A stretch of 50,077 bases of DNA from a bacterium (GTDB lineage: Bacteria > Armatimonadota > Zipacnadia > Zipacnadales > UBA11051), in NCBI GenBank assembly GCA_030604405.1, contig JAUVVY010000029.1, forward strand, positions 1 through 50,077, in the 5' to 3' direction. The stretch's first letter is position 1. The number at the start of each line of letters is the position of its first letter. Below are positions 23,779 to 40,250 of the stretch, piece after piece. Below the pieces are notes generated by a model, which was given only the letters and a program-made list of their open reading frames with translations, did no database searches and had not been told where the DNA came from. The position numbers and the translations under genes are program-made.

Positions 23779-23860
23779 TTCCGTAGGTCAGGCTTCCCGC
23801 AGGCCCTGCCGTGTTCGCCCTGAGCTTGTCGAAGGGAGCTTGTCGCAGGGCAGCCCGACA
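23779..23860. repeat. Second repeat cluster inside the hydrogenase operon
   Basis: The gap 23770-23890 carries GTAGGTCAGGCTTCCCGCAGG and the TTCGCCCTGAGCTTGTCGAA element with an AGCTTGTCGCAGGGCAGCCCGAC tail. The latter is the inverse of the elements at 1283 and 46726. Confidence 0.75.
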
Positions 23861-23890
23861 CCGAAGAGAGCAAATCAGGAGTTAGGCCTT

Positions 23891-24385
23891 ATGTCCGAGG
23901 TAGCTGAAAAGATCATAACCAAAGTCCGCGAGGACTATTCGGGTGACATCCTCGAGGCCACAACGATGGGCCGTCACGAGCTGGTGTTCACAGTTGCGCC
24001 CGACCAGATCGCCGTCTTCAGCAAGTTCATTGTCGAATACGGCTGGTGGCATCTGTCAACCATCACCGGCGTGGACGAGGGCGAGGAAATCAGCATATTG
24101 TACCATCTTTGCGGCGAGGAAGCTCCGGCGGCGACCATTAAGACAGCGGTCCCCAAGGCCGCCGCCAAGCTTCAGTCAATTACATCGGTCATTCCCGGCG
24201 CGACTATGTACGAGCGCGAGGTACACGATCTGCTCGGCGTAGAATTCGACGGCCACCCACGGCTCGACCGCCTGGTTCTGCCTGATGACTGGCCCGAGGG
24301 CGTCTATCCGCTGCGCATTGAAGAGATAGAAAAACAGGCCGAAAGAGATAAGGAACAAAAGGAAGAAAAGGAAGAAAATGGGTAG
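23891..24385 (+). CDS. NuoC-like 30-kDa-type subunit of the hydrogenase (MbhK)
   Basis: The start at 23891 follows AGGAG; the frame is open into the repeat DNA upstream. The 164-residue protein has the complex I 30-kDa signature: [17 protein letters not shown] and [17 protein letters not shown] charged Glu/Lys tail ends the protein. It docks on the large subunit. Its stop lies inside the first codons of the large-subunit gene (8-base overlap), so the two are translationally coupled. Confidence 0.92.
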
Positions 24386-25466
24386 GATTACATTTCCTAT
24401 CGGACCTCAGCACCCGGCGCTGAAGGAGCCGGAAAGCTTCAAGATAACTGCCGAAGGCGAGCGCGTGGTGGCTGCCGATGTTCGCCTCGGCTATTGCCAC
24501 AGGAGCATCGAAGCCGCCTGTCAGCACCGCAACTACGTGCGCGGGCAGTACATTTGCGAGCGCATCTGCGGAATCTGCTCCCATATCCACTGCAACACCT
24601 TCGCCCGCGCGGTCGAGGAGCTGCTGCAGTTGGAAGTGCCCATGCGCGCCAGGTACATCCGCACCATCGTCGCCGAACTTGAGCGCATCCACAGTCACTT
24701 GCTGTGGCTCGGCGTTGCCGCTCACGAGGTCGGCTTCGATACCTTGTTCATGTACGTGTGGCGCGACCGCGAGGTCGTACAGGACCTGCTCGAACTGATT
24801 TCGGGCAATCGGGTCAACTATGGCATGGCCACCATCGGCGGTGCCAAGATGGACCTGACGCCGGAGATTGTTGACAAGTGCCTCGAAGGCATGGACGTTC
24901 TGCTCGAACGGACCGCGTACTACACTCACGTAGGCACCACCGAGGGCACCTTCCTCAAACGCGTCGAGGGCGTCGGGATGCTGAGCGAGCAGCAGGCCAG
25001 AGAACTCGGCGCAGTCGGGCCCACCTCCCGCGCCTCGAACGTGCCCAATGACATACGTCATGATTTCCCCTACGATGCTTACGATCAGATCGAGACCGAT
25101 TTCGAGCCGATAACCTCGGATCTGTGCGATGTCCTGGGGCGAACCATAGTCCGCGTTCTTGAGACCGTGCAGGCGTGTGAGGTCTGCAAGGACCTGTTGA
25201 CCAGGCTGCCTGAGGGCGAGATTCAGGCGCGGGCCAAGCCGCGAGTTCCGGAGGCCGAAGCCCTGGTGCGTTGCGAGGCGCCGCGCGGAGAGCTGATCTA
25301 CTATATGCGCAGCAACGGCACCGACAAGCCGGCGCGCGTGAAAGTGAGGACACCGAGTCTGGCCAACTGGCCTGCAGCTTTGGCGATGCTTGAGGGGGCT
25401 TATGTGGCCGATGTACCCATCGCCCTCGCCTCCATTGACCCCTGCATGGCATGCACTGACCGCTAG
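24378..25466 (+). CDS. [NiFe]-hydrogenase group 4 large subunit (NuoD-like, MbhL) without C-terminal extension
   Basis: This 362-residue catalytic subunit holds both nickel-binding motifs: Cys64 and Cys67 in [11 protein letters not shown], and Cys356 and Cys359 in DPCMACTDR. They make it a true hydrogenase and exclude complex I, where these cysteines are lost. The GPQHPALKE start is typical of NuoD-like proteins. The gene ends exactly at the arginine after the second motif, which is where the maturation protease usually cuts. No C-terminal extension is encoded, so no HycI-type processing should be needed. The reaction is 2H+ plus reduced ferredoxin to H2, coupled to ion export, or the reverse. 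Confidence 0.95.
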
Positions 25467-25486
25467 CAGATCGGGGGCGGAATACA

Positions 25487-25672
25487 GTGTGGAGTTTTCT
25501 TGGGACCATCGGGGCGCTGCTGGTGTTTGAGATAGGCCTCTTTCTGCTGGTACGTGCTGGGGTACTACCAGGGGCTGCGTTGGACAAGCGCCAGCAGCGC
25601 ATAATGTGGGTGACTATCGCGTGCACAGCGACCGTCTTTCTGATCGCGGGCATCGTGTACGTGGGTACTTGA
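25487..25672 (+). CDS. Small two-helix membrane protein within the hydrogenase operon
   Basis: This 61-residue protein starts with GTG 20 bases after the large-subunit gene, with GGGGGCGG upstream. Two helices (FLGTIGALLVFEIGLFLLV and TIACTATVFLIAGIVYV) are joined by a short basic loop with LDKRQQR. No family is recognised. Its place between the large subunit and NuoH-like genes suggests an accessory subunit or assembly factor. Confidence 0.65.
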   Translation: MWSFLGTIGALLVFEIGLFLLVRAGVLPGAALDKRQQRIMWVTIACTATVFLIAGIVYVGT

Positions 25673-25713
25673 CGGCGCTGTAGGGAGCGCCAAAGGGTTG
25701 CGGAGGCCGCGGT

Positions 25714-26016
25714 ATGAGCCTTTGGGAAATTATTGCCTTGATCCTGGTAGGCGTAATAGTTTCACATGCTCTTAATCGCCTTAAGCTCGTCTTGTCCCAG
25801 CAGGGCGGGGAAATCCTGGAGGCATGCGTATACGGGCTCTTCTTTGGCTTTTTTGTCGTGCGGATCCTTGCCGACGATGCCGCGCCGCTCTATAGCAAGG
25901 GGCTTGCTGCATTGGGAGCGGGGCTGCTTGTGACTGCGGTAATGCTAAGGATGGTTCAGTGGCGGGCAGCAGGGGCTTCAAGTCCGTCAAGGGGAAGTAT
26001 CCCGCCCAGTAGGTGA
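25714..26016 (+). CDS. Second small membrane protein within the hydrogenase operon
   Basis: This 100-residue protein has helices at about 5-18 (EIIALILVGVIVSHA), 38-52 (VYGLFFGFFVVRILA) and 62-80 (LAALGAGLLVTAVMLRM), and a Ser/Pro-rich tail. No family is recognised. It starts 41 bases after the previous gene and 82 bases before the NuoH-like gene. The length of the tail is uncertain. Confidence 0.6.
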   Translation: MSLWEIIALILVGVIVSHALNRLKLVLSQQGGEILEACVYGLFFGFFVVRILADDAAPLYSKGLAALGAGLLVTAVMLRMVQWRAAGASSPSRGSIPPSR

Positions 26017-26098
26017 GCCGCAGCGGCCAACGTAGCCTTCTCGATCTAATCGTACCGCCACTGAAGTTGGCGGACAAAAAAGAGACAGTGACCGCCTT

Positions 26099-27079
26099 AT
26101 GGATGCTGGCAATGAACTGATGTCACTATTCTATATTCTGATCTTTCCCGGCTTTGCCTTTCTGGTGGCTTTCGGGCTATTTGCGGACTTCTTCGACCGC
26201 AAGGTAGTCGCCCGCCTGCAGAACCGCCAGGGCCCGCCGTGGTACCAGCCGCTGGCCGACATGATCAAGCTGCTGGGCAAAGAAGACATCATCACCGACC
26301 ATGCCGACCGCGGCATCGTCAATCTGATACCCCTCTTCGGGCTGGCCTCGGTCGCCGCCGCCTTCCTCTACGTCCCCTTGTGGAGCGTGGAGTGGCCGTT
26401 CTCATTCACCGGCGACCTCGTCGTGATCGTCTATCTGCTCACCATCCCGGCCTTCGTCCTGGTGCTTTTGGGCTGGTATTCGCCGAACCCGTTCGGCTCG
26501 CTGGGCACCGGCCGCGTCATCACCCAACTCTTCGGCTATGAGGTGCCCTTCACTCTCGCGCTGCTTACCCCGGCCATCGTCGCGGAGAGCTGGCAGGTGA
26601 CCGAACTGCTCCGCTTCCAGTTGATGGACACATGGTTCATAGGTATAACGCCGGTTGCTTTCTTCGTCGCTATCGTTGCGCTGGTCGGGAAGCTGGAGCG
26701 GATTCCGTTTGACATCCCGCACGCCGAGACCGAGATCGTCGAGGGCCCCATGACCGAGTACACGGGCCGCAAGCTGGCGCTGCTGAAGATGATGTTTCAG
26801 ACCGAGATGGTGGTCGGCTCGGCTCTTATCGCGGTGCTCTTCCTGGGCGGGCCGTACTTCCCCGGCATCACCGCCGCCCTGGCCGGCACTGTCGCCGGCA
26901 CGGTGGTCGGCTTTCTGATCGTGCTGGTCAAGACGCTGCTGATGATCTTTCTGCTGTCGCTGATCAAGGCGCTGTTTGCCAGGCTGCGGATCGAGCAGAT
27001 GGTCAACTGGTGCCTGGTCTGGCTGACGATTCCGATCCTGCTTCAGATACTCTTCATCATTGTTGCAGCTTCGCTGTAG
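26099..27079 (+). CDS. NuoH-like (MbhM) membrane anchor subunit
   Basis: This 326-residue protein has about eight helices and the NuoH hallmarks: RLQNRQGPPWYQPLADMIK after helix 1 and ERIPFDIPHAETEIVEGPM, the acidic loop that forms the quinone-like cavity and links to the hydrophilic module. In group 4 hydrogenases it anchors the large and small subunits and passes the conformational or electrostatic signal to the antiporter modules. A second ATG at 26120 is an alternative start. Confidence 0.94.
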   Translation: MDAGNELMSLFYILIFPGFAFLVAFGLFADFFDRKVVARLQNRQGPPWYQPLADMIKLLGKEDIITDHADRGIVNLIPLFGLASVAAAFLYVPLWSVEWPFSFTGDLVVIVYLLTIPAFVLVLLGWYSPNPFGSLGTGRVITQLFGYEVPFTLALLTPAIVAESWQVTELLRFQLMDTWFIGITPVAFFVAIVALVGKLERIPFDIPHAETEIVEGPMTEYTGRKLALLKMMFQTEMVVGSALIAVLFLGGPYFPGITAALAGTVAGTVVGFLIVLVKTLLMIFLLSLIKALFARLRIEQMVNWCLVWLTIPILLQILFIIVAASL

Positions 27080-27090
27080 GGAGACGCAGT

Positions 27091-27555
27091 ATGCCCAAAA
27101 CCATCGGCGTAATGTTTAAGGAACTCATCTCGCATCTGTTCGCAAAGCCGGCCACGGTGCTCTATCCGCTGGAGCGTCTGGCACCGCCGGAGCGCTTTCG
27201 GGGGCGGCTGATCTGGAACGCGGATTTGTGCATCGGCTGCAACATGTGCGTGCGCGACTGCCCGTGCGATGTGCTGGAACTGGTCGAGCGCGCAGACGGC
27301 TCGGTGGACGACAAGGGCAAGCCGATCAAAGACCTCGTCGCGGTCATGGACCGCTGCATCTTCTGCGGCCAGTGCTCCTGGGTCTGCCCCAAGGATGCGA
27401 TCCGCTTCGAGCGCGTCTATGAGCTGGCCCAGGGCGACAAGACCGAACTGAAGATGTATGTCGAGCACGGCGAACCCGAACCGGAGTCGGAGGAGCCGGA
27501 GCAAACCGAAGAGCCCGAACCTGCTGAAGAACAAGATAACAGCGACGACCGATAG
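27091..27555 (+). CDS. NuoI-like two-[4Fe-4S] ferredoxin subunit (MbhN)
   Basis: The start at 27091 has GGGAG 7 bases upstream. The 154-residue protein has two C-x2-C-x2-C-x3-C-P motifs: Cys47/50/53/57 and Cys89/92/95/99. It accepts electrons from soluble ferredoxin and hands them to the small subunit. The last 30 residues are almost only Glu, Pro and Gln plus Asp (from about 123), an unusually acidic tail. It is the last gene of the operon, 12 bases after the NuoH-like gene, and is followed by a hairpin. Confidence 0.94.
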   Translation: MPKTIGVMFKELISHLFAKPATVLYPLERLAPPERFRGRLIWNADLCIGCNMCVRDCPCDVLELVERADGSVDDKGKPIKDLVAVMDRCIFCGQCSWVCPKDAIRFERVYELAQGDKTELKMYVEHGEPEPESEEPEQTEEPEPAEEQDNSDDR

Positions 27556-28001: not shown

Positions 28002-29339
28002 ATGCCAGCCCAGGACGACAACCAGCCCGACGAGCCGGAAGAAGAAATCGAATACTTCAACAACAAAGACGAATGGCCGGAAGGCCTGTGGGAGGAATGG
28101 GGCGACCCGCCGCCGGACGAAAAGCGCTGCCAGTTTGAGAGCGGCTTTTTCGGCGAGCGCTGTGGCCTGCCGGGGTACGCCGACGACGAAGAGGGCAGCC
28201 CGCGCTGCATCTTTCACTACGAAGGCGACCGTGATGCTGCAAAATTGCGCGAAGAATTGGAAGCTGCTGTCGCCCGCAAGGCCGACCTGCGGCGCGCCAA
28301 ACTGCAAAACGCAAACCTGCGCGGGGCCGAACTGCAAAACGCAAACCTGAGCAAGGCCGAACTGCAAAACGCAGACTTGTACAACGCCGAACTCCAAAAC
28401 GCAGGCCTCTTCGGGGCCAAGCTGCAAAACGCAGACCTGAGATGGGCCAACCTGCAAAATGCAGACCTGGCGTACGCCAATCTGCGAGACGCAGGCCTAA
28501 GCGGAGCCAAACTGCAAGACGGATACTTGCTTCGGGCCGAGCTGCACAACGCAGACCTGAGTTACGCCAATCTGGAAAAATCAAACCTCGTCGAGGCCAA
28601 TCTGCGAAACGTGGACCTGACCAGGGCGAGGATTACGGGCAGTGCTGACCTGCGAAGTGCTGACCTTACTGATGCGGTGCTGTGGGAAGTAGAGATTTCG
28701 CCGCAAGCAAAGCTAGATGGTGTGATATGGGGCGAGGACGAAAAGGGCCCTCTGAGATGCGAGAGGGAAGCGCAGGACAAAACTCATCCTGATGATATGT
28801 CTCAAGCAGAGGCGTTCGCCAAGTGCGAAGCTGTCTATCGGCAGATAAAGCTGAGGTATCAGGAGTCGGGGGATTATCGGCGAGCGGGCGACTTCTTCAT
28901 CCGTGAGATGGAATGTCAGCGCAGGTGGCTAGTTCTTGAAGCAGGTGAGCGAGGCCCGAAGCACCTATTCGAGCGGGCGTTTCGGTGGCTGATGTGCGCC
29001 ACCTGCAGATATGGTGAAGACCCCAAACGGCTCCTGGGTATCATGGGCGGGCTGGTGGGGATATTCGCAGTCGTGCACATGCTCGCCGGATTCAACCAGG
29101 TGCAGGGCGGTGAGAGCGCGCCAGTATTCATGGGGTGGTTCCAGTACAATGACAACCTCGGCTTCGTGGAGGCCGTCTGGAAAGCCGTCTATTTCAGCAT
29201 AGTCAACTTCACGAGCCTGGGGCACGGTGACCTGCAGCCGACCGCCTGGGGGAGTCTGGTGTGTAGCATTGAGGTCGTGCTGGGGGTGACTTTAATCGCG
29301 CTGTTTATGGTCTGTGTGGCGCGGCGGTTCAGCCGGTGA
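28002..29339 (+). CDS. Pentapeptide-repeat protein fused to a two-helix ion channel
   Basis: The 445-residue protein starts after a strong GGGAGGAGG site. Domains: an acidic N-terminus (1-40); a Cys-rich patch (RCQFES, RCGLPG, RCIFHYEGD, about 42-76) that could bind a metal; a pentapeptide-repeat helix (about 93-225, A-[DEN]-L-x-x units); a helical linker (about 265-335) with a QxxKxxYQESGDYRRAGDF pattern; and two helices (about 343-363 and 418-440) flanking a pore loop. The pore reads TSLGHGDLQP (404-413), a potassium-channel-like filter in which His replaces the usual Tyr/Phe. Pentapeptide repeats form a right-handed beta-helix on the cytoplasmic side. It is probably a gated cation channel whose stimulus is unknown. 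Confidence 0.88.
   Translation: MPAQDDNQPDEPEEEIEYFNNKDEWPEGLWEEWGDPPPDEKRCQFESGFFGERCGLPGYADDEEGSPRCIFHYEGDRDAAKLREELEAAVARKADLRRAKLQNANLRGAELQNANLSKAELQNADLYNAELQNAGLFGAKLQNADLRWANLQNADLAYANLRDAGLSGAKLQDGYLLRAELHNADLSYANLEKSNLVEANLRNVDLTRARITGSADLRSADLTDAVLWEVEISPQAKLDGVIWGEDEKGPLRCEREAQDKTHPDDMSQAEAFAKCEAVYRQIKLRYQESGDYRRAGDFFIREMECQRRWLVLEAGERGPKHLFERAFRWLMCATCRYGEDPKRLLGIMGGLVGIFAVVHMLAGFNQVQGGESAPVFMGWFQYNDNLGFVEAVWKAVYFSIVNFTSLGHGDLQPTAWGSLVCSIEVVLGVTLIALFMVCVARRFSR
28291..28620 (+). repeat. Eleven 30-bp tandem units coding two pentapeptides each
   Basis: Units of exactly 30 bases (consensus about GNNGGGCCAA followed by CTGCAAAACGCAGACCTG) repeat in frame from 28291 to 28620, so the coding DNA itself and not only the protein is periodic. 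The middle units (LQNADL) are most alike; the last ones have drifted. This suggests recent expansion by duplication of a decapeptide unit. Confidence 0.85.
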
Positions 29340-29447: not shown

Positions 29448-32400
29448 CTACCTGGTCGGGACCTTCGGATATACCGTCTCAAGCAGCTTGACGATGCGGT
29501 CGTTGATCCGCGGAGTGATGTCCAGGCGCTCCTGCAAGTACGCCGCAAAAGGCGTCTCAATACCCAGCGCCACCCGCGTCGCAGTCTCATCATCACAGGT
29601 CATTACAATATCAGCCGGCTGCCCCGTCGGCCTGCCTGCGGTGACCTTGCCCTTGCGTATCGTCAGACGCCCTTGCAGGCGGCTGCCAATAAGATCAATC
29701 CTTCCCTCCCAGGCCTTGAAATCTGAAGCCGCCAGGCGCTTTTCTATCGCAGAGGCCATCTCCTGGAGGAACTGCGGCAGATGGCGCACCTGCAACATCC
29801 AGATGCCGCCGGTGGGTTTGCTGACATAGCCGGCACGCTGCAAGGCCGCGTTGGTATTCTCATCATCCGCTTCGCGATACCCGCTGACACGCTTGGCGCC
29901 GGCCTCGCGAAGAGCGCGATGCAGCAGCGCCAGAAGTGAGTCGGCGATGGCAGCCCGCTGGTCATCTTTGGCCACGGCCAGGACCTCGACGTAGGCCTCA
30001 TCGCCCCCGTCGTAGTCAGCGGAAGTTGCCCCGACTATCTTGCCGTCCTTTTCGGCAAGGTAAGCTATCGCCTGCGGCGGCAGTTCTGCGAATAGGAACT
30101 CGCCGATACTCATTGAGTCGCCGTGGACTTCGAGCAAGAAGGCGTTGACCTCTGGGCCGTCGCCCTCCTGATACTCGCGGAACAGAACTCCTGTTGGCAG
30201 TTGCGGCCGGGTGCTGCCGGCCAGCTCGCAGATCCATTGACGCGAGTCGCTCACATCGGTGAAGCCGAAGTCATGGTACAGGCGGTGTGCCACGTTGCGC
30301 GTGCCGGTGCCGAGGCTTGATACTGAGCATTTGGCGGCTGCCGGATGGTGCATCGTTTTCTCCATCAGGCAACGCGACAGTCCGCACCGCCGCCATTGCG
30401 CGGAGGTATGGACCCAGTGGACACTATGCGAACTGACGGCGGCCTCGCTGGTGAAGCGCTGGATCTCGGGCAAGGAAGAAACGTTGGCGACCTTGTAGCC
30501 CTCGACACAGCAGTGCATCGCCAGGTAGCCGTCTGAGATGACTTCCAACTTGCCGACGCGCTTTCCGTGTGCGTCAGTGATGTTGTGGAGTGACAGCTCT
30601 CCTGCCCGGTCTGAGCCGGCCTTGTCCAGGGCATGGCCCGCAGCAAGCTGAAAGCGCGGCTCGAACTTGCGCGCCAGTCGGATCAGCGTGACTGCGACCG
30701 TACTGTCGCCGCTGTCGGCCAGGGCCAGACCTGCGATCGCACGTATCGGGTCCGGCTTGCCTGAGGCGAAAAGCTTTTTCAGTTCTGTAGCGGCGCGCTT
30801 GTCGCCCTGCTTGCTCAGCTTGAGGGCGTGGCAGAGGCGGCTCCAGTCATCGGCCCTCTTAGCGCCGGGTAGCAGCCAGTCTTTCTCCTGTCCGATTGCG
30901 ACCAGGTCCAGCGCGGCCTCCATTCGCGATGACAGACTCTCGGCTTCATCGCGCATCGCCTCATTGAGCCGCGCCATCATTCGGCTCTTGACGATGGTGG
31001 CAGTGGGCTTGACAATCGGCAGCGGGTGCACGGTCAGGCCGCGCTCGGCGAACCAGGGGAAGAGGTCCTTGCCGATTCCCAGGCTCAGATAATAGATGCC
31101 GCGGTCGCTGTGCCACGCATAGCTTGGCGGCAGATGCTTGAAGGGGGCCTTTTCGGGCAGCGCTTCAGCCATCTTACCAATAGCGTCATAGCCGTGGGCA
31201 GTGAGGAACTCGCGTGCCAGCACGAGGCCGCGAGGACATCGCTCCTCGGTGCTGGTGTAATTCCGCGCCAGGTCAAAGGTGGCTGCGCGCCCATCCATCT
31301 CGGCGATCCAACGATCCGCCCGCTGGCGGCACCGGTCTGCTTCTTCCTGATGGCCGATGTCTCCCAGCAGCCGCATGGCAAGCTCGATCACGCAGTTGCC
31401 GGCGCTGAACGGAGCGGCCAGGCACTCCTCATAGATTTCGTGCCGGCCCAGACCGGAGTCGAGCAAGGCCTGGATTGTCTGACGAGCCTGCGAAGGTGCC
31501 GGGACTTGAGCACCGACCCCTGCCGGCCACCAAGGCTCCCAGTGGTGCTGAGCTCTCGGGAGAGTATCGGTAATGCAATGCAGGCGAGCCGGCTTCCAGG
31601 TCTTGCCGAAAAGCTCTTTGCAGGCCGCATCCGCTTGTTGCAGCAAGTCTGTGGCCTGTTGCATCGCGTCGGCACAGTTCGCCTCGCAGGTGATATGAAA
31701 GTAGTCGCCGCGTTGGATCGTGCCGCGGCCGCCGATATATGCCGGGACCTGGGCAGAGGCGGATTTGCTCCGCGAACCGGCAGCCAGCCAGTGGGCCAGA
31801 GCAGGACAAACAAGGGGGCGCTGGTTGCTGAAGCCCGCTGCACCGACCATCACTACCCGACCATTGCCGAACCTGGCAGCGGCTGCCACCGGCTGGCCCG
31901 TGTGCCTGTACGAGGCCAGAGTTCTCGCGCCGGGCGGCGGTACGATCGGCCCGGAGGCATCATCATGCAGCAGATTCTGGGATGAGCACGGGATCCTCGC
32001 CCTCGATTTCATGGGCAGCAGCCCTTTGCTGTGCTCACCCAGGGCGGGATGTTTGTGCGCCTTTATCTGGCGGGAGGGGACATAGATTTCCAGCGAGCCA
32101 TGAGCGCGGGCGCCCTCGCAGTCGGCAGATAGAAACTGTGCACCGAAAAGCCCCGCGACAGCGTTTTGAGCCATCTTTTCAACCGGCTCGTTTGCTTCCA
32201 GCTCAAAGACCGCTGCGCTGGCCGCCAGCAGCAAGCCGCCGCCATCTTCGACGAATTGGCGGATGAGTTTGAGCTCGGCTTTTGTGTACTGCTTCAGCGA
32301 CTGCCCGCCGATGACCAGCACGTCATAGTCGTTCAACAGGGATCGCTTGAGCGGGAGGCGATTGTCGGTGCACCGAAACTGCTCGCCTGGCCGCTCGCGG

Positions 32401-32483
32401 ACGCACGGGAGCAGGTTCGTGAACAGCCGCCCTGCGCCGGCATCCTTGGATCGATCAGCGAGAATGCGAATTGTCCTTGGCAT
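29448..32483 (-). CDS. Multidomain protein: amidotransferase-like, helical repeats, and Eis-like GNAT-GNAT-SCP2 module
   Basis: The ATG at 32483 has AGGTG 5 bases upstream; a GTG three codons earlier is possible. Domains of the 1011-residue product: an amidotransferase-like Rossmann domain (about 5-235; YDVLVIGG, EDGGGLLLAA, GRVVMVGAAG); a helical domain (about 255-540) of unknown family; HEAT-like repeats (545-628); a first GNAT fold (about 632-760, with the acetyl-CoA loop QWRRCGLSRCLM and NVAHRLYHDFGF); a second GNAT fold (about 768-900); and an SCP2-like domain (about 903-1005). The last 380 residues match the size and order of Eis-type N-acetyltransferases, which usually stand alone at about 400 residues. 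No signal peptide is seen. Substrate and the purpose of the fusion are unknown. Confidence 0.82.
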   Translation of the reverse strand: MPRTIRILADRSKDAGAGRLFTNLLPCVRERPGEQFRCTDNRLPLKRSLLNDYDVLVIGGQSLKQYTKAELKLIRQFVEDGGGLLLAASAAVFELEANEPVEKMAQNAVAGLFGAQFLSADCEGARAHGSLEIYVPSRQIKAHKHPALGEHSKGLLPMKSRARIPCSSQNLLHDDASGPIVPPPGARTLASYRHTGQPVAAAARFGNGRVVMVGAAGFSNQRPLVCPALAHWLAAGSRSKSASAQVPAYIGGRGTIQRGDYFHITCEANCADAMQQATDLLQQADAACKELFGKTWKPARLHCITDTLPRAQHHWEPWWPAGVGAQVPAPSQARQTIQALLDSGLGRHEIYEECLAAPFSAGNCVIELAMRLLGDIGHQEEADRCRQRADRWIAEMDGRAATFDLARNYTSTEERCPRGLVLAREFLTAHGYDAIGKMAEALPEKAPFKHLPPSYAWHSDRGIYYLSLGIGKDLFPWFAERGLTVHPLPIVKPTATIVKSRMMARLNEAMRDEAESLSSRMEAALDLVAIGQEKDWLLPGAKRADDWSRLCHALKLSKQGDKRAATELKKLFASGKPDPIRAIAGLALADSGDSTVAVTLIRLARKFEPRFQLAAGHALDKAGSDRAGELSLHNITDAHGKRVGKLEVISDGYLAMHCCVEGYKVANVSSLPEIQRFTSEAAVSSHSVHWVHTSAQWRRCGLSRCLMEKTMHHPAAAKCSVSSLGTGTRNVAHRLYHDFGFTDVSDSRQWICELAGSTRPQLPTGVLFREYQEGDGPEVNAFLLEVHGDSMSIGEFLFAELPPQAIAYLAEKDGKIVGATSADYDGGDEAYVEVLAVAKDDQRAAIADSLLALLHRALREAGAKRVSGYREADDENTNAALQRAGYVSKPTGGIWMLQVRHLPQFLQEMASAIEKRLAASDFKAWEGRIDLIGSRLQGRLTIRKGKVTAGRPTGQPADIVMTCDDETATRVALGIETPFAAYLQERLDITPRINDRIVKLLETVYPKVPTR
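31970..32019 (+). repeat. Inverted 50-bp copy of the hypB P-loop region
   Basis: Plus-strand bases 31970-32019 match the hypB sense strand (complement of 33249-33200) at 47 of 50 positions. In hypB these bases code RKFWDQHGILALDFMGS just before and into the P-loop; here they lie antisense inside the fusion gene and code an unrelated stretch (about residues 155-172). The matching hypB segment fits its own family, so hypB is the likely source. Confidence 0.85.
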
Positions 32484-32546
32484 TTTTGTCACCTAACAAT
32501 GTTTGTGAATGTAACAGTCACGGCGGGAAGGCCGAGCAACGGGATT

Positions 32547-32650: not shown

Positions 32651-33310
32651 CTAGCCAGCAATCTCCGCGAGGTGGCGCTCGATGAAGTCGCAGAGAGTGT
32701 CTATGCCCTCGCCGGTGGTGCAGGAGATCGCGAACTGCGGGGCATCAGAGTTCAACTGGTCGCATAAGTCCCAAAACCTGCCGGTATCAAACGGCAAATA
32801 CGGCAGCAGGTCAATCTTATTGAGGATAATGCCGTCGGCCTCGCGGAAAGCCACCGGATACTTCTCCGGCTTGTCATCGCCCTCAGGGACGCTGGCGACG
32901 ACGGTGCGAAAATGTGCGCCGAGCAGGAACGCGGTCGGGCACACCAGGTTGCCGACGTTCTCGATGAGGATGATCTGCACGCCATCCAAATCAAGCTGCT
33001 GCATAGCGCGCGAGACCATCGCCGCGTGCAAGTGGCAGGCCCCGCCGGTGTTGATCTGAAATGCCTCGGCGCCGGCCTGCTCGATGCGACGGGCGTCGTT
33101 GTCTGAGGCGATGTCACCCTCGATGACCTTCAGGGAGCTGCCGCGTTTGATGAGCTCTGCGACGGCGCGTTCGAATATACTGGTTTTGCCGCTGCCCGGG
33201 CTGCCCATGAAATCGAGGGCGAGGATGCCGTGCTGATCCCAGAATTTGCGGTTGCCCTCGGCCGCGGCATCGTTGCTGCCCAGGATGCCCTTCATCACTT
33301 CAACTCTCAT
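32651..33310 (-). CDS. hypB: Hydrogenase nickel-incorporation GTPase HypB
   Basis: The 219-residue G3E-family GTPase starts at the ATG overlapping the hypA stop by 11 bases (ATGAGAGTTGA); the next ATG at 33295 is an alternative. Motifs: Walker A GSPGSGKT (36-43), the metal site ACHLHA (Cys92, His93, His95), ENVGNLVCP (Cys124) and the guanine specificity NKID (164-167). The His-rich or CxxCGC N-terminus of some HypB proteins is absent. HypB with HypA delivers nickel to the hydrogenase large subunit, here most likely the group 4 enzyme upstream. hypC, D, E and F are not in this window. Confidence 0.95.
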   Translation of the reverse strand: MRVEVMKGILGSNDAAAEGNRKFWDQHGILALDFMGSPGSGKTSIFERAVAELIKRGSSLKVIEGDIASDNDARRIEQAGAEAFQINTGGACHLHAAMVSRAMQQLDLDGVQIILIENVGNLVCPTAFLLGAHFRTVVASVPEGDDKPEKYPVAFREADGIILNKIDLLPYLPFDTGRFWDLCDQLNSDAPQFAISCTTGEGIDTLCDFIERHLAEIAG

Positions 33311-33665
33311 CAGATACAGCCTCGCTATCTTCCAACTCCGCTTCCACCACCTGTAGCTCATGGCCCGAGGCCAGCTTCAGGCGCAAGCTCCCGCAAGCCT
33401 CGCACTTTACGAATGGTGTGAACGACTCGGTCTGGTGCCCGCACTCCTGGCACGTGGCGCGAACCGGCACGTGCTCGATATGCAGCTCGGAGCCTTGCAG
33501 CGGCGAGCCGTACGTCACCGCCGTCCAAGCCTCGTGAAGCAGCTCGGGCACGATCATGCTCATCGGGCCGACGGCAACTGTGGCCGCCTGCACACGACTG
33601 CCATGCTCTTGTGCGACGTCCGAGAGGATCGTCGCTATGTATTGGGCGATTGAATACTCGTGCAT
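33300..33665 (-). CDS. hypA: Hydrogenase nickel metallochaperone HypA
   Basis: The start at 33665 gives the required N-terminus MHEYSIAQ (His2 is a nickel ligand). The 121-residue product has a zinc finger of the HypA type: CQECG and CEACG, about 71-74 and 88-91. The ribosome site is weak. The frame upstream is open but begins with an unrelated stretch. It precedes hypB with an 11-base overlap. HypA carries nickel to HypB for insertion into hydrogenase or, in some bacteria, urease; no urease gene is visible. Confidence 0.95.
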   Translation of the reverse strand: MHEYSIAQYIATILSDVAQEHGSRVQAATVAVGPMSMIVPELLHEAWTAVTYGSPLQGSELHIEHVPVRATCQECGHQTESFTPFVKCEACGSLRLKLASGHELQVVEAELEDSEAVSDES

Positions 33666-33709
33666 GGTGAACTCAAGCGATTGGTCGCGTACCGAGGCGC
33701 TGAAAAGCC

Positions 33710-33738
33710 ACCTTAACACCGCACAGCGATGGCGTCAA
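33710..33738 (-). promoter_or_regulatory. Candidate hypAB promoter
   Basis: On the minus strand TTGACG (33738-33733), 17 bases, TAAGGT (33715-33710), about 45 bases before the hypA start. The -10 is poor. Confidence 0.35.
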
Positions 33739-37226: not shown

Positions 37227-37349
37227 AAGTTGGGCTAGCGGATCCGGCTCAGTACAGCCTCTACCGCCTTCGCCAAGGCTACGGCGGACAAGCCCACGCG
37301 GTCACATTTGGGATGCGTAAGCTGCGCGATCGAGGAGGAACTCGTCAAG

Positions 37350-40250
37350 ATGAAAACGCTTGGGATGCTATTAGTGCTTGTGGCGCTGATTGTGGCGCAA
37401 AGCTGTGCATCGGCGCTTGAGGTCGGAGTCTATACTCGCTCGACAGGCGCCGGGGCCGTCATCGAGGCGCTCGGCCAGCAGGACACTATTACCGTGGTCG
37501 AGCTGGAAAGCCTGGATTTGCCGGCGCTGGTGGGGTGCGATGTCATAGTGCTTGAGAGCATGAAGGGCCTGGGCGGTGGGAATGAAAAATGGCGGGATGC
37601 TATCCGCACTTATGCCGCCGCCGGCGGCGGAGTGGTGTTGGAACACGACTCGGTGGGCTTCCGGGGCTGGGATGATGAGACGCGGCTGTTTCCGGAGATC
37701 ATCGCCCTGGGTATTGATCGCTCTCAGACGGTGACGGTAAGAGTGGTCGCCGAGCATCCGGTGATTGCCGGGCTGCCGGCGGAGTTTAAGCACGCCTACA
37801 GCGACCACATCATGATGCAGGTGGGGCCGGAGGGCGAGACCGTCATCGCTGATGCCGACGGCATGGCAACCACGATAGCCGGAAGCTATGGCAAGGGGCG
37901 GGTGGTCGGCAACGGCATGATCAGCGGCTACGGCGTTGATGAGACCGGGGCGGCCAAGCAGATGCCGGCCACCGGCGATCAGTTGAAGCTGCTGCTGAAT
38001 ACCATCAAATGGGCCGGTGAGGCGCAGTTGTCGGCACTGGAGCCGGGGGAAGTCATTGCGCGTATGACCGAGGCTTTGGAGGCGGAGCTGGCTGCAAAAG
38101 CTCCGCAAGCGCCGCCGTACACCGACTGGTATCCCAATACAGCGATGCAGGAAGCGGGCTACCAGAAGCAGCCGATGGCAGAACTCGGCGGCCGGGCGTG
38201 GCAGTGGTGGACGCTCAAACCGGGCTACAGCAATGAGATGATACACCGGCACGTGCAGCACATGAGGCGGACCGGAGTCACCGATATCATCTACCTCGGA
38301 CAGTCGGGGCTTCAACTGGGCTATCTCAGCGACATCCCTGATGCCCAACGGAAGTTCTGGGTGGGACGCTATAAGGGCCGCGATCCACTGAAGCTCGTAT
38401 GCGAGGCGGCAAAGGCCGAGGGGCTGCGAGTGTGGCTGGGAATGCACAGCGGCGACTACGGCGAGGGGATGGTTTGTGTTGACCACAAGGGCCAACCGTA
38501 CATGTACGGCACCCATCCAATTGATGATGTGCGCAGCCCAACACTACGTGAATTTCTGAAACAAGTGCTCACAGAAGCGAAGGAAAAGTACGACCTGGCC
38601 GGATTTTACTATGACGAGCTATTCTTCAACTACCCCGACAAGTGCGGTGACGACTTCGACGACTTCTCGCAATGGTGCGAGGCGGAATTCGGCGAAAGGC
38701 CGGATAAGTCGCTGCTTGACAAGTTAGAAGCGGGCGTCCGGTGGCACGATCCTGAGGATGTCTGGTGGCGGCGGCTGATGCTGTACAAGGCTCACAATAA
38801 CGCCGACTTCATGAAATTTTTGGCCGATACAGCGCACGGGCTGGGCATGGGAGCTATCGGCGAACTGCGGCCCTGTGCAAGATACGCCAACGGTGCAACC
38901 TATGCCATGGACAACCCGGCACTGGTCAGAGCCGGCTGCGACTGGTACTACGTGGCGGCGGGCTGTGAGGCGGCGATGGTGTATCCGAACGGCTGCTCGG
39001 GGCAGCATCACGGCGGCCCATTTGGCTACTATAACACCCACAATCTGCGCGGCAGGCCCACGTTCAACTTCGTGTACTACCACATTGAGCACCCCATCGC
39101 CTGGGGCACTCCCGAGCATCCCGAGCGGCTGCGGGAGATGCTGCGCGACTGCCGCGAATGGGACGGGGCGAAGTCCTTGACACGCGCCGCGCTGCTGACA
39201 TACCAGTACGGCATCATGCTGCAGAATGCCGATCCACGACCGATTGAAAAGCTTGAGGCCAACCTGCTCTACCGGCTGGGGCGCTACCAGGATGTTGACC
39301 GTCTGGAAACTGAAGACACTCGCTACTACGAGAACTATCGGGTGCTCATCGCGCCGCCTCTGAGCATCCAGGGACACGGCCCGGAGGTCTTCGCTGCGAT
39401 CGAGGAATTCGTGTCCAACGGTGGCACAGTCATCTCGCTGGGCGGGAAGTGGATCCAGTCATTGCGCGACTTCACCCGGCAAGAAGATGTGACCGCCAGG
39501 TTCCTGGGCGGAGATTACAAAGGTGAGTCGCGGCCGGTGGACACCATCAATATCGAGGCGGATGAGGAGATCAAAATCGCGCCGCAAGAACTAATCCCCT
39601 TTGTGCCCGCTGCGGGTACACAGGTGCTGTCCACCTTTGGCGATGGCAAGCCTGCGGCTACGGTAAAAACTATCGGCAAAGGCAATGTCATCGGGATCCA
39701 CTGCGATGTCTTGTCAGAGGCCGCCGCCGATGGATGGGCACACGAGCGACTCCTGGCCGATCTAGTCTCCGAATTCAGTCAGCCGGAGATCAGAGTGCTC
39801 GACGCCGGGGCAGAGATCAAGACCAGCCTGCAGAAGAACAACTGGGTGGCTGTGTCACTGTTCGAGCGCGAGACCCCGGCATCAGTAAGGATCAGTGTGG
39901 ACCTCGAAAAGCTGGGCCTCAACGCCGAGGGCTACCGGGTATTGCTCTACGGCCGCTCGCGGGAACTGCTCAAGCCGACGGGGGTATATCAGCCGAGCAA
40001 CTGGACCGCCGAGGACCTCAAGGAGGGCCTCGAACTGACCATCGCCCCTGCCGGCACCATGCGCTGGGACCTGCCCGAAGACCTGGGGCTGTCGGTGTGG
40101 CCGGAGTGGGACCAGGACTGGCTGGGGACGCAAGTGCCGAAGATGTGGGCGGGACACAAGGGACTGCGCGAATGTGGCTTCGAAGTCCTCATCATCACGC
40201 CCCATGACGAACTGACGATAAGCGGGCAGAAGGCGGTAGTGGGACAATGA
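37350..40250 (+). CDS. Secreted glycosidase-like protein with amidotransferase-like domains
   Basis: The start at 37350 has GAGGAGG upstream and begins a signal peptide (LGMLLVLVALIVAQSCASA). The product has 966 residues. A first Rossmann-like domain (about 25-230; LVGCDVIVLES, YGKGRVVGNGMI) precedes a TIM-barrel region (about 265-600) with TDIIYLGQSG, LRVWLGMHSG, AGFYYDELFFNYP (about 416-428) and CDWYYVAAG. A second flavodoxin-like domain follows (about 640-800; YRVLIAPPLSI, GGTVISLGGKW), as in the trimerisation domain of GH42-type beta-galactosidases. A beta-sandwich ends the protein. It is likely a carbohydrate-active enzyme of an uncharacterised GHL-type family; Asp/Glu of YYDE are candidate catalytic residues. 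Confidence 0.75.
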   Translation: MKTLGMLLVLVALIVAQSCASALEVGVYTRSTGAGAVIEALGQQDTITVVELESLDLPALVGCDVIVLESMKGLGGGNEKWRDAIRTYAAAGGGVVLEHDSVGFRGWDDETRLFPEIIALGIDRSQTVTVRVVAEHPVIAGLPAEFKHAYSDHIMMQVGPEGETVIADADGMATTIAGSYGKGRVVGNGMISGYGVDETGAAKQMPATGDQLKLLLNTIKWAGEAQLSALEPGEVIARMTEALEAELAAKAPQAPPYTDWYPNTAMQEAGYQKQPMAELGGRAWQWWTLKPGYSNEMIHRHVQHMRRTGVTDIIYLGQSGLQLGYLSDIPDAQRKFWVGRYKGRDPLKLVCEAAKAEGLRVWLGMHSGDYGEGMVCVDHKGQPYMYGTHPIDDVRSPTLREFLKQVLTEAKEKYDLAGFYYDELFFNYPDKCGDDFDDFSQWCEAEFGERPDKSLLDKLEAGVRWHDPEDVWWRRLMLYKAHNNADFMKFLADTAHGLGMGAIGELRPCARYANGATYAMDNPALVRAGCDWYYVAAGCEAAMVYPNGCSGQHHGGPFGYYNTHNLRGRPTFNFVYYHIEHPIAWGTPEHPERLREMLRDCREWDGAKSLTRAALLTYQYGIMLQNADPRPIEKLEANLLYRLGRYQDVDRLETEDTRYYENYRVLIAPPLSIQGHGPEVFAAIEEFVSNGGTVISLGGKWIQSLRDFTRQEDVTARFLGGDYKGESRPVDTINIEADEEIKIAPQELIPFVPAAGTQVLSTFGDGKPAATVKTIGKGNVIGIHCDVLSEAAADGWAHERLLADLVSEFSQPEIRVLDAGAEIKTSLQKNNWVAVSLFERETPASVRISVDLEKLGLNAEGYRVLLYGRSRELLKPTGVYQPSNWTAEDLKEGLELTIAPAGTMRWDLPEDLGLSVWPEWDQDWLGTQVPKMWAGHKGLRECGFEVLIITPHDELTISGQKAVVGQ

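Follow-up and report, generated by a model that had tools for sequence, protein, structure and literature searches.

The question raised by this locus is what a protein could do in which an acetyltransferase module of the Eis type, known so far from stand-alone enzymes, follows some 630 residues of a different nature. The protein is encoded on the minus strand of a 50,077-nucleotide stretch of contig JAUVVY010000029.1 (assembly GCA_030604405.1), referred to below as the window, which comes from Zipacnadia, a class of Armatimonadota whose members, found in marine sediment, were described as anaerobic acetogens (PMC10290634). An earlier note on this DNA had proposed an Eis-like module fused to amidotransferase-like and helical-repeat domains, and had rightly pointed out that such a fusion is unusual for Eis. 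Twelve intact full-length fusions (the window copy and those of 11 other genomes, 982-1011 amino acids in alignments) were found in five family-level groups of Armatimonadota, and the fusion is a single conserved protein. Its architecture is almost certainly a GATase1-like domain, a dead gluzincin peptidase, HEAT repeats, two GNAT domains (GNAT1 and GNAT2) and an SCP2-like domain, with a single predicted acetylating site (Table 1). With a probability of about 0.5, it is a cytoplasmic Eis-type N-acetyltransferase whose dead-peptidase and HEAT half binds a substrate or a partner.

The order GNAT-GNAT-SCP2, claimed earlier for the last ~380 residues, was recovered both by Pfam and by structure. 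Acetyltransf_10 at residues 688-748 and Acetyltransf_7 at 805-872 (40.3-43.6 vs. 27 bits) scored above their curated cut-offs, and the SCP2 match at 917-989 remained slightly under its own (18.5 vs. 21.3 bits). In an AlphaFold model built with 11 orthologs (pLDDT 82, pTM 0.80), Eis-type structures constituted the top 23 structural matches (VIA-align; Z 19-22, root-mean-square deviation 5-6 Å, mostly ~330 aligned residues, spanning approximately 641-1011) and were also on top in Foldseek (E ~1e-11), whereas tandem GNATs without SCP2, such as MshD and VipF, ranked lower (Z ~17 or less, ~240-250 aligned). The curated Eis models (Pfam Acetyltransf_9 and SCP2_2, NCBIfam Eis) did not reach their cut-offs with the window protein (23.8 bits vs. 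a cut-off of 25 for Acetyltransf_9), and some relatives do match Eis models; the window protein is Eis-type by fold and lies outside curated Eis membership. The Eis family (type V; 2hv2 and 2i00 of Enterococcus, 4my0 of Kribbella, 2ozg of Anabaena, and mycobacterial Eis) shares with it the domain order, the fold over ~330 residues, a first GNAT that is predicted to be the active one, a loop-less second GNAT and, putatively, the motif-B tyrosine in GNAT1. Known Eis proteins are stand-alone and of ~400 amino acids, in contrast with the 630 residues placed in front of the module here, and identity to them is 11-17%.

The acetyl-CoA loop noticed previously proved invariant in the fused proteins, and around the N-x-A-x-x-L-Y motif all copies keep G-T-R-N...Y. 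Tyr736, invariant in all 12, occupies the motif-B position, which is the place of the general acid (compare Tyr126 of Mycobacterium tuberculosis Eis); it was located by motif and not by residue-wise superposition. A profile of three stand-alone Eis-like proteins alone gave no match in the PDB, so that catalytic residues are not alignable to solved Eis by sequence. The loop of GNAT2 was replaced in all members by a variable segment in which no loop motif is left. In Eis only the N-terminal GNAT is active, the central one being devoid of the conserved Gln/Arg (PMC4964394, PMC8556138). Given the intact loop and tyrosine of GNAT1 and the lost loop of GNAT2, one acetylating site is expected, with GNAT1 active and GNAT2 silent, as in Eis. 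Mean identity across the fusions was highest for SCP2 (50%) and GNAT1 (49%), followed by HEAT (39%), Rossmann (38%), the dead peptidase (35%) and GNAT2 (34%).

The extreme C-terminus differed among groups. Past a P-x-x-P motif, the tail comprises 9 amino acids ending in Trp in stand-alone relatives, 7-8 in the fusions of family f5, one ortholog of which has an RWGW tail, and 1-3 in the subclade of the window protein, where it is also shorter than in Eis; the structural alignment to Eis extends to residue 1011, at which pLDDT is 54. The remote catalytic base of M. tuberculosis Eis is the carboxylate at its terminus (PMC8556138), and the identity of the base in the window subclade is uncertain because its tail is shorter than that of the stand-alone relatives. 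Split versions, which the earlier note had suggested looking for, occur in family f38 (L071, L072, L073, L074, L078, L079, L081, L082), where the Eis module is divided between two adjacent genes, one for GNAT1 with its own SCP2-like tail (~230-250 amino acids) and the other for GNAT2-SCP2 (~278 amino acids). This arrangement suggests an Eis of two subunits and an ancestral state with one SCP2-like domain on each GNAT.

The Rossmann-like, helical and HEAT-like parts expected ahead of the module were all found. The N-terminal domain gave sub-threshold Pfam matches to DUF4350, ThuA and IFT52_GIFT, and superimposed on the N-terminal domain of IFT52 (5fmr; Z 15.0, 198 aligned residues, 3.6 Å). The description "amidotransferase-like" thus held for the fold, which places this domain beside the IFT52 GIFT, DUF4350 and ThuA relatives of the GATase1 superfamily, and failed for the active site: no cysteine that could be the class I glutamine amidotransferase nucleophile occurs in invariant or near-invariant columns of this domain in the family alignment. 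The domain context also differs from that of these relatives. For the HEAT-like repeats, the family profile matched artificial HEAT-repeat (alphaRep) and HEAT structures (E 5e-18), Pfam HEAT_2 being sub-threshold on the window protein (19.6 vs. 27.7 bits). The same profile gave a weak sequence match to 4fca, a solved conserved protein of uncharacterised role (E 1.2e-4).

Modelled alone, the middle domain (pLDDT 78) resembled M1 aminopeptidases and TAF2 in TFIID (7edx_B, Z 12.6), with Z 11-13 over ~218 of 260 residues, values that mostly helical models can reach; Foldseek alone returned no E below 0.001, and a Pfam search of the window protein itself was negative for peptidase domains. The gluzincin fold is therefore assigned from these model matches combined with sequence homology to HExxH-bearing, Peptidase_M60-related proteins. 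The position of the HEAT repeats, right behind the dead gluzincin domain, recalls the 7edx_B chain, which we take to be TAF2, the catalytically dead M1-like subunit of TFIID. M1 aminopeptidases and TAF2 are alike in having a gluzincin fold and then helical HEAT-like repeats, but they show no close sequence kinship to the fusion, begin with another N-terminal domain and have no acetyltransferase domain.

A profile of the N-terminal half retrieved many unfused proteins (~460-520 amino acids) in other Armatimonadota, homologous over ~470 residues. The zinc-site motif HExxH...E was present in 17 of the 20 unfused relatives examined and in none of the 12 fused proteins. Its usual form, HEAxHSWVLPxxEPxWNE, agrees with the published gluzincin pattern of M60-like peptidases (PMC3267712), and two unfused relatives matched Peptidase_M60 below threshold. 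Three unfused relatives (L057, L058, L117) also miss HExxH, so that loss of the metal site extends beyond the fused proteins. Most unfused relatives start with a hydrophobic leader, whereas the fused proteins, judged by eye, show no signal peptide. The secreted GATase1-like plus M60-like gluzincin proteins of the phylum (L075, L106-L116, L118) share both N-terminal domains and their order with the fusion, and carry a leader and usually HExxH...E; leader and motif are both missing from the fusion, to which HEAT, GNAT1, GNAT2 and SCP2 have been added. The unfused peptidase relatives are without HEAT repeats, and no intermediate with HEAT repeats and without the Eis module was found, L117 (759 amino acids) ending in masked and unrelated sequence.

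From these sequence comparisons, the N-terminal half appears to descend from secreted peptidases, which are widespread in the phylum, a descent newly seen here, and the fused protein is probably cytoplasmic. Lacking HExxH, the middle domain would be a peptidase fold without metal site, and no peptidase activity is expected from it. A cell-wall substrate, considered earlier, is unlikely since the hydrophobic N-terminal segment of the secreted relatives is missing. The change from enzyme to pseudoenzyme went together with domain fusion and an end of secretion, and active and dead relatives exist within one phylum. They even exist within one genome: G245 contains the fusion, an unfused relative bearing HExxH and a dead unfused relative (L076, 6515-9463; L077, 6311-7864; L117).

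As for the function of the whole protein, acetyl-CoA would bind GNAT1, the amine would enter the pocket between GNAT1 and GNAT2, and the acetyl group would be passed to the amine while the leaving thiol takes up a proton from Tyr736. Together with the HEAT repeats, the once secreted peptidase would have lost cutting and kept a surface for binding peptides or partners. The dead domain is nearly as conserved (35%) as the Rossmann and HEAT parts (38-39%), which argues for its retention in a non-catalytic role. If the N-terminal half were a scaffold for substrate binding or assembly, the acceptor would more likely be a peptide or protein (lysine or N-terminus) than a free small molecule; this scaffold and peptide-acceptor part of the proposal is held with a little less confidence than even odds. 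A more specific and tentative version is that a secreted metallopeptidase was internalised, lost its metal site and now works as a substrate-recruiting arm, giving a pseudopeptidase-guided protein or peptide acetyltransferase; no report of such an architecture was found for Eis enzymes. Eis enzymes have been studied as stand-alone drug-modifying and protein-acetylating enzymes, their physiological substrates in most bacteria being obscure. In this natural fusion the partner is a peptide-handling pseudoenzyme, a hint that the acceptor is a peptide or protein, and the isolated N-terminal half offers a handle for finding it; what makes the protein interesting is its conserved fusion and its pseudopeptidase, not new chemistry.

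Several points weigh against the reading favoured here. The known substrates of Eis enzymes include both small amines and peptides (PMC5799202, PMC4964394), and no gene neighbour is common to the window family and f5, none of the neighbours indicating a protein target. GNAT1 and SCP2 being the best-conserved domains, the half ahead of them may be an accessory that is merely tolerated. In addition, the tail of the window subclade is ~6-8 residues shorter than in the neighbouring stand-alone proteins, and the Eis mechanism may be altered.

A rival reading is a small-molecule amine N-acetyltransferase, with polyamines, arylalkylamines or aminoglycoside-like compounds as acceptors, whose N-terminal half would set only stability or oligomeric state. 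Known Eis enzymes acetylate aminoglycosides and arylalkylamines (PMC5799202, PMC4964394), stand-alone Eis-like relatives of the same class (L015, L016, L018) manage without the N-terminal half, and the best conservation falls on GNAT1 and SCP2. Retention of the N-terminal 630 residues in 12 of 12 intact copies, at 35-39% mean identity, is more than a dispensable tag would lead one to expect. This small-amine reading, with the N-terminal half as an accessory arm, is less likely than not, and still nearly as likely as the binding role favoured here.

An allosteric sensor, with a metabolite or sugar in the pocket of the GATase1-like or dead-peptidase domain turning the acetyltransferase on or off, seems improbable. 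Folds of the GATase1, ThuA and DUF4350 type often bind ligands and lack catalysis. There are also known cases of regulated GNATs fused to sensor domains (PMC8556138), and in other genomes several of the neighbouring genes have products that act on carbohydrates (glycoside hydrolase family 4, RGL-like, GxGYxYP, RmlC-like); these neighbours vary between families, and no ligand-binding motif was identified in the N-terminal half. The earlier proposal of one enzyme with two activities, cleavage of one group and acetylation of another, can draw on the peptidase fold and on the HExxH of unfused relatives, but it becomes very improbable with the zinc motif absent from all 12 fused proteins and no invariant cysteine in the GATase1-like domain.

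An artefact (missed stop, chimeric assembly or pseudogene) could be imagined for a draft metagenome-assembled genome with an insert of ~18 codons in the window copy and a broken frame in G035, and was ruled out by conserved full-length orthologs: the 12 intact copies come from independently assembled genomes, one of them a single 4.9-Mb contig, dN is well below dS and the insert preserves the frame. The missing stop between two genes that the earlier note had kept in view is contradicted by the 11 further intact orthologs, and the frame is open throughout, without internal stop, the version described earlier (29448-32483) being that from the ATG. The proportions of nonsynonymous (pN) and synonymous (pS) differences were 0.28-0.32 and 0.63-0.69 between the window copy and its three nearest orthologs, and 0.21-0.32 vs. 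0.51-0.69 in the closest ortholog pairs overall, so the protein evolves under purifying selection.

The source genome (96 contigs, 97% complete) has one copy of the gene. Among the 46 genomes of the class 13 carry it: 11 intact, one with the frame interrupted once (G035) and one split into two halves on two contigs, both fragments reaching contig ends (G027). Only one fusion was found beyond the class among 291 genomes of the phylum, in G245, a single-contig genome of another family-level lineage. The tree pairs G245 with G036 (f3), against taxonomy, and this grouping, together with the patchy distribution, suggests horizontal transfer of the fusion gene. The fused protein had no match in plasmids or phages (tblastn) nor in viral contigs (profile search), and a general scan of genome contigs, the only search covering phyla beyond Armatimonadota, had as its sole match the contig JALGTI010000307.1 of a metagenome-assembled genome (L003). 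No genome of the class combines the fusion (13 genomes) with a stand-alone Eis-like gene (3 genomes); chance alone gives this non-overlap with a probability of ~0.36, and no weight is therefore given to it. No published description of the fusion was found in a literature search of incomplete coverage.

Table 1. Position of the fusion gene and of its domains, motifs and insert within the window.
Feature	Coordinates	Strand	Basis
Whole fusion gene	29448..32492	minus	GTG start 32492 = 1014 codons; ATG 32483 = 1011 codons
Residues 1-240, GATase1/GIFT-like Rossmann domain	31764..32483	minus	Sub-threshold Pfam, IFT52 structure match, alignment
Window-only insert, ~residues 155-172	31970..32019	minus	50-nt inverted copy of hypB 33200-33249, 94% identical
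Residues 241-490, gluzincin (M60/M1-type) fold, HExxH lost	31014..31763	minus	Model matches and sequence kinship
Residues 491-630, HEAT-like helical repeats	30594..31013	minus	Structure-profile matches, helices in model
Residues 631-755, GNAT1, likely catalytic	30219..30593	minus	Acetyltransf_10, 37.7 vs. 23.6 bits
Acetyl-CoA pyrophosphate loop WRRCGLSR (697-704)	30372..30395	minus	W-R-R-x-G-L-[ST]-R in 12/12 fused proteins
G-T-G-T-R-N-x-A-H-R-L-Y (725-736), terminal invariant tyrosine	30276..30311	minus	Alignment
Residues 756-895, GNAT2, P-loop lost, probably non-catalytic	29799..30218	minus	Acetyltransf_7, loop comparison
Residues 896-1011, SCP2-like domain and short C-terminal tail	29451..29798	minus	Sub-threshold SCP2, structure match to Eis C-terminal domains

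The insert of the window copy originates from codons 38-54 of hypB, 1.2 kb away, and is absent from all other orthologs of the fusion, the reading frame being kept. Its pattern occurred exactly twice in the source genome and in none of 10 relatives, and pLDDT of the model fell below 50 at residues 157-174. A template-switch insertion is the likely origin of this segment.

In the window, the fusion gene lies behind hypA-hypB (32651-33719) on the same strand, hypB ending at 32651, 158 bp ahead of the GTG, and adjoins an operon of the [NiFe]-hydrogenase/complex-I-like type. In f5 (L084, L085, L087, L088, L089, L092, L093) conserved co-directional genes are found upstream of the fusion, namely a pair for M16 peptidases, of which the second is the more degenerate, an RmlC-like gene and sometimes an orotate-phosphoribosyltransferase-like gene, the last recognised by eye. 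Elsewhere the neighbours include MgtC and Gfo/Idh genes (L083) or GH4 (L086). As no partner gene common to the families was found in the neighbourhoods compared, gene context gives no function.

The operon at 23840-27555 is complex-I-like and of the group 4 [NiFe]-hydrogenase type, and its large subunit retains the RICGIC and DPCMAC cysteine motifs. No Ech complex was reported in 77 Armatimonadota genomes (PMC10290634), and the operon may merit attention for this reason. A gene convergent with the fusion gene, at 28002-29339, encodes a protein of pentapeptide repeats that carries an Ion_trans_2 pore domain at its C-terminus. At 37308-40250, a 980-amino-acid open reading frame opens with another ThuA/GATase1-like stretch, possibly followed, judging by eye, by a glycoside-hydrolase-like region.

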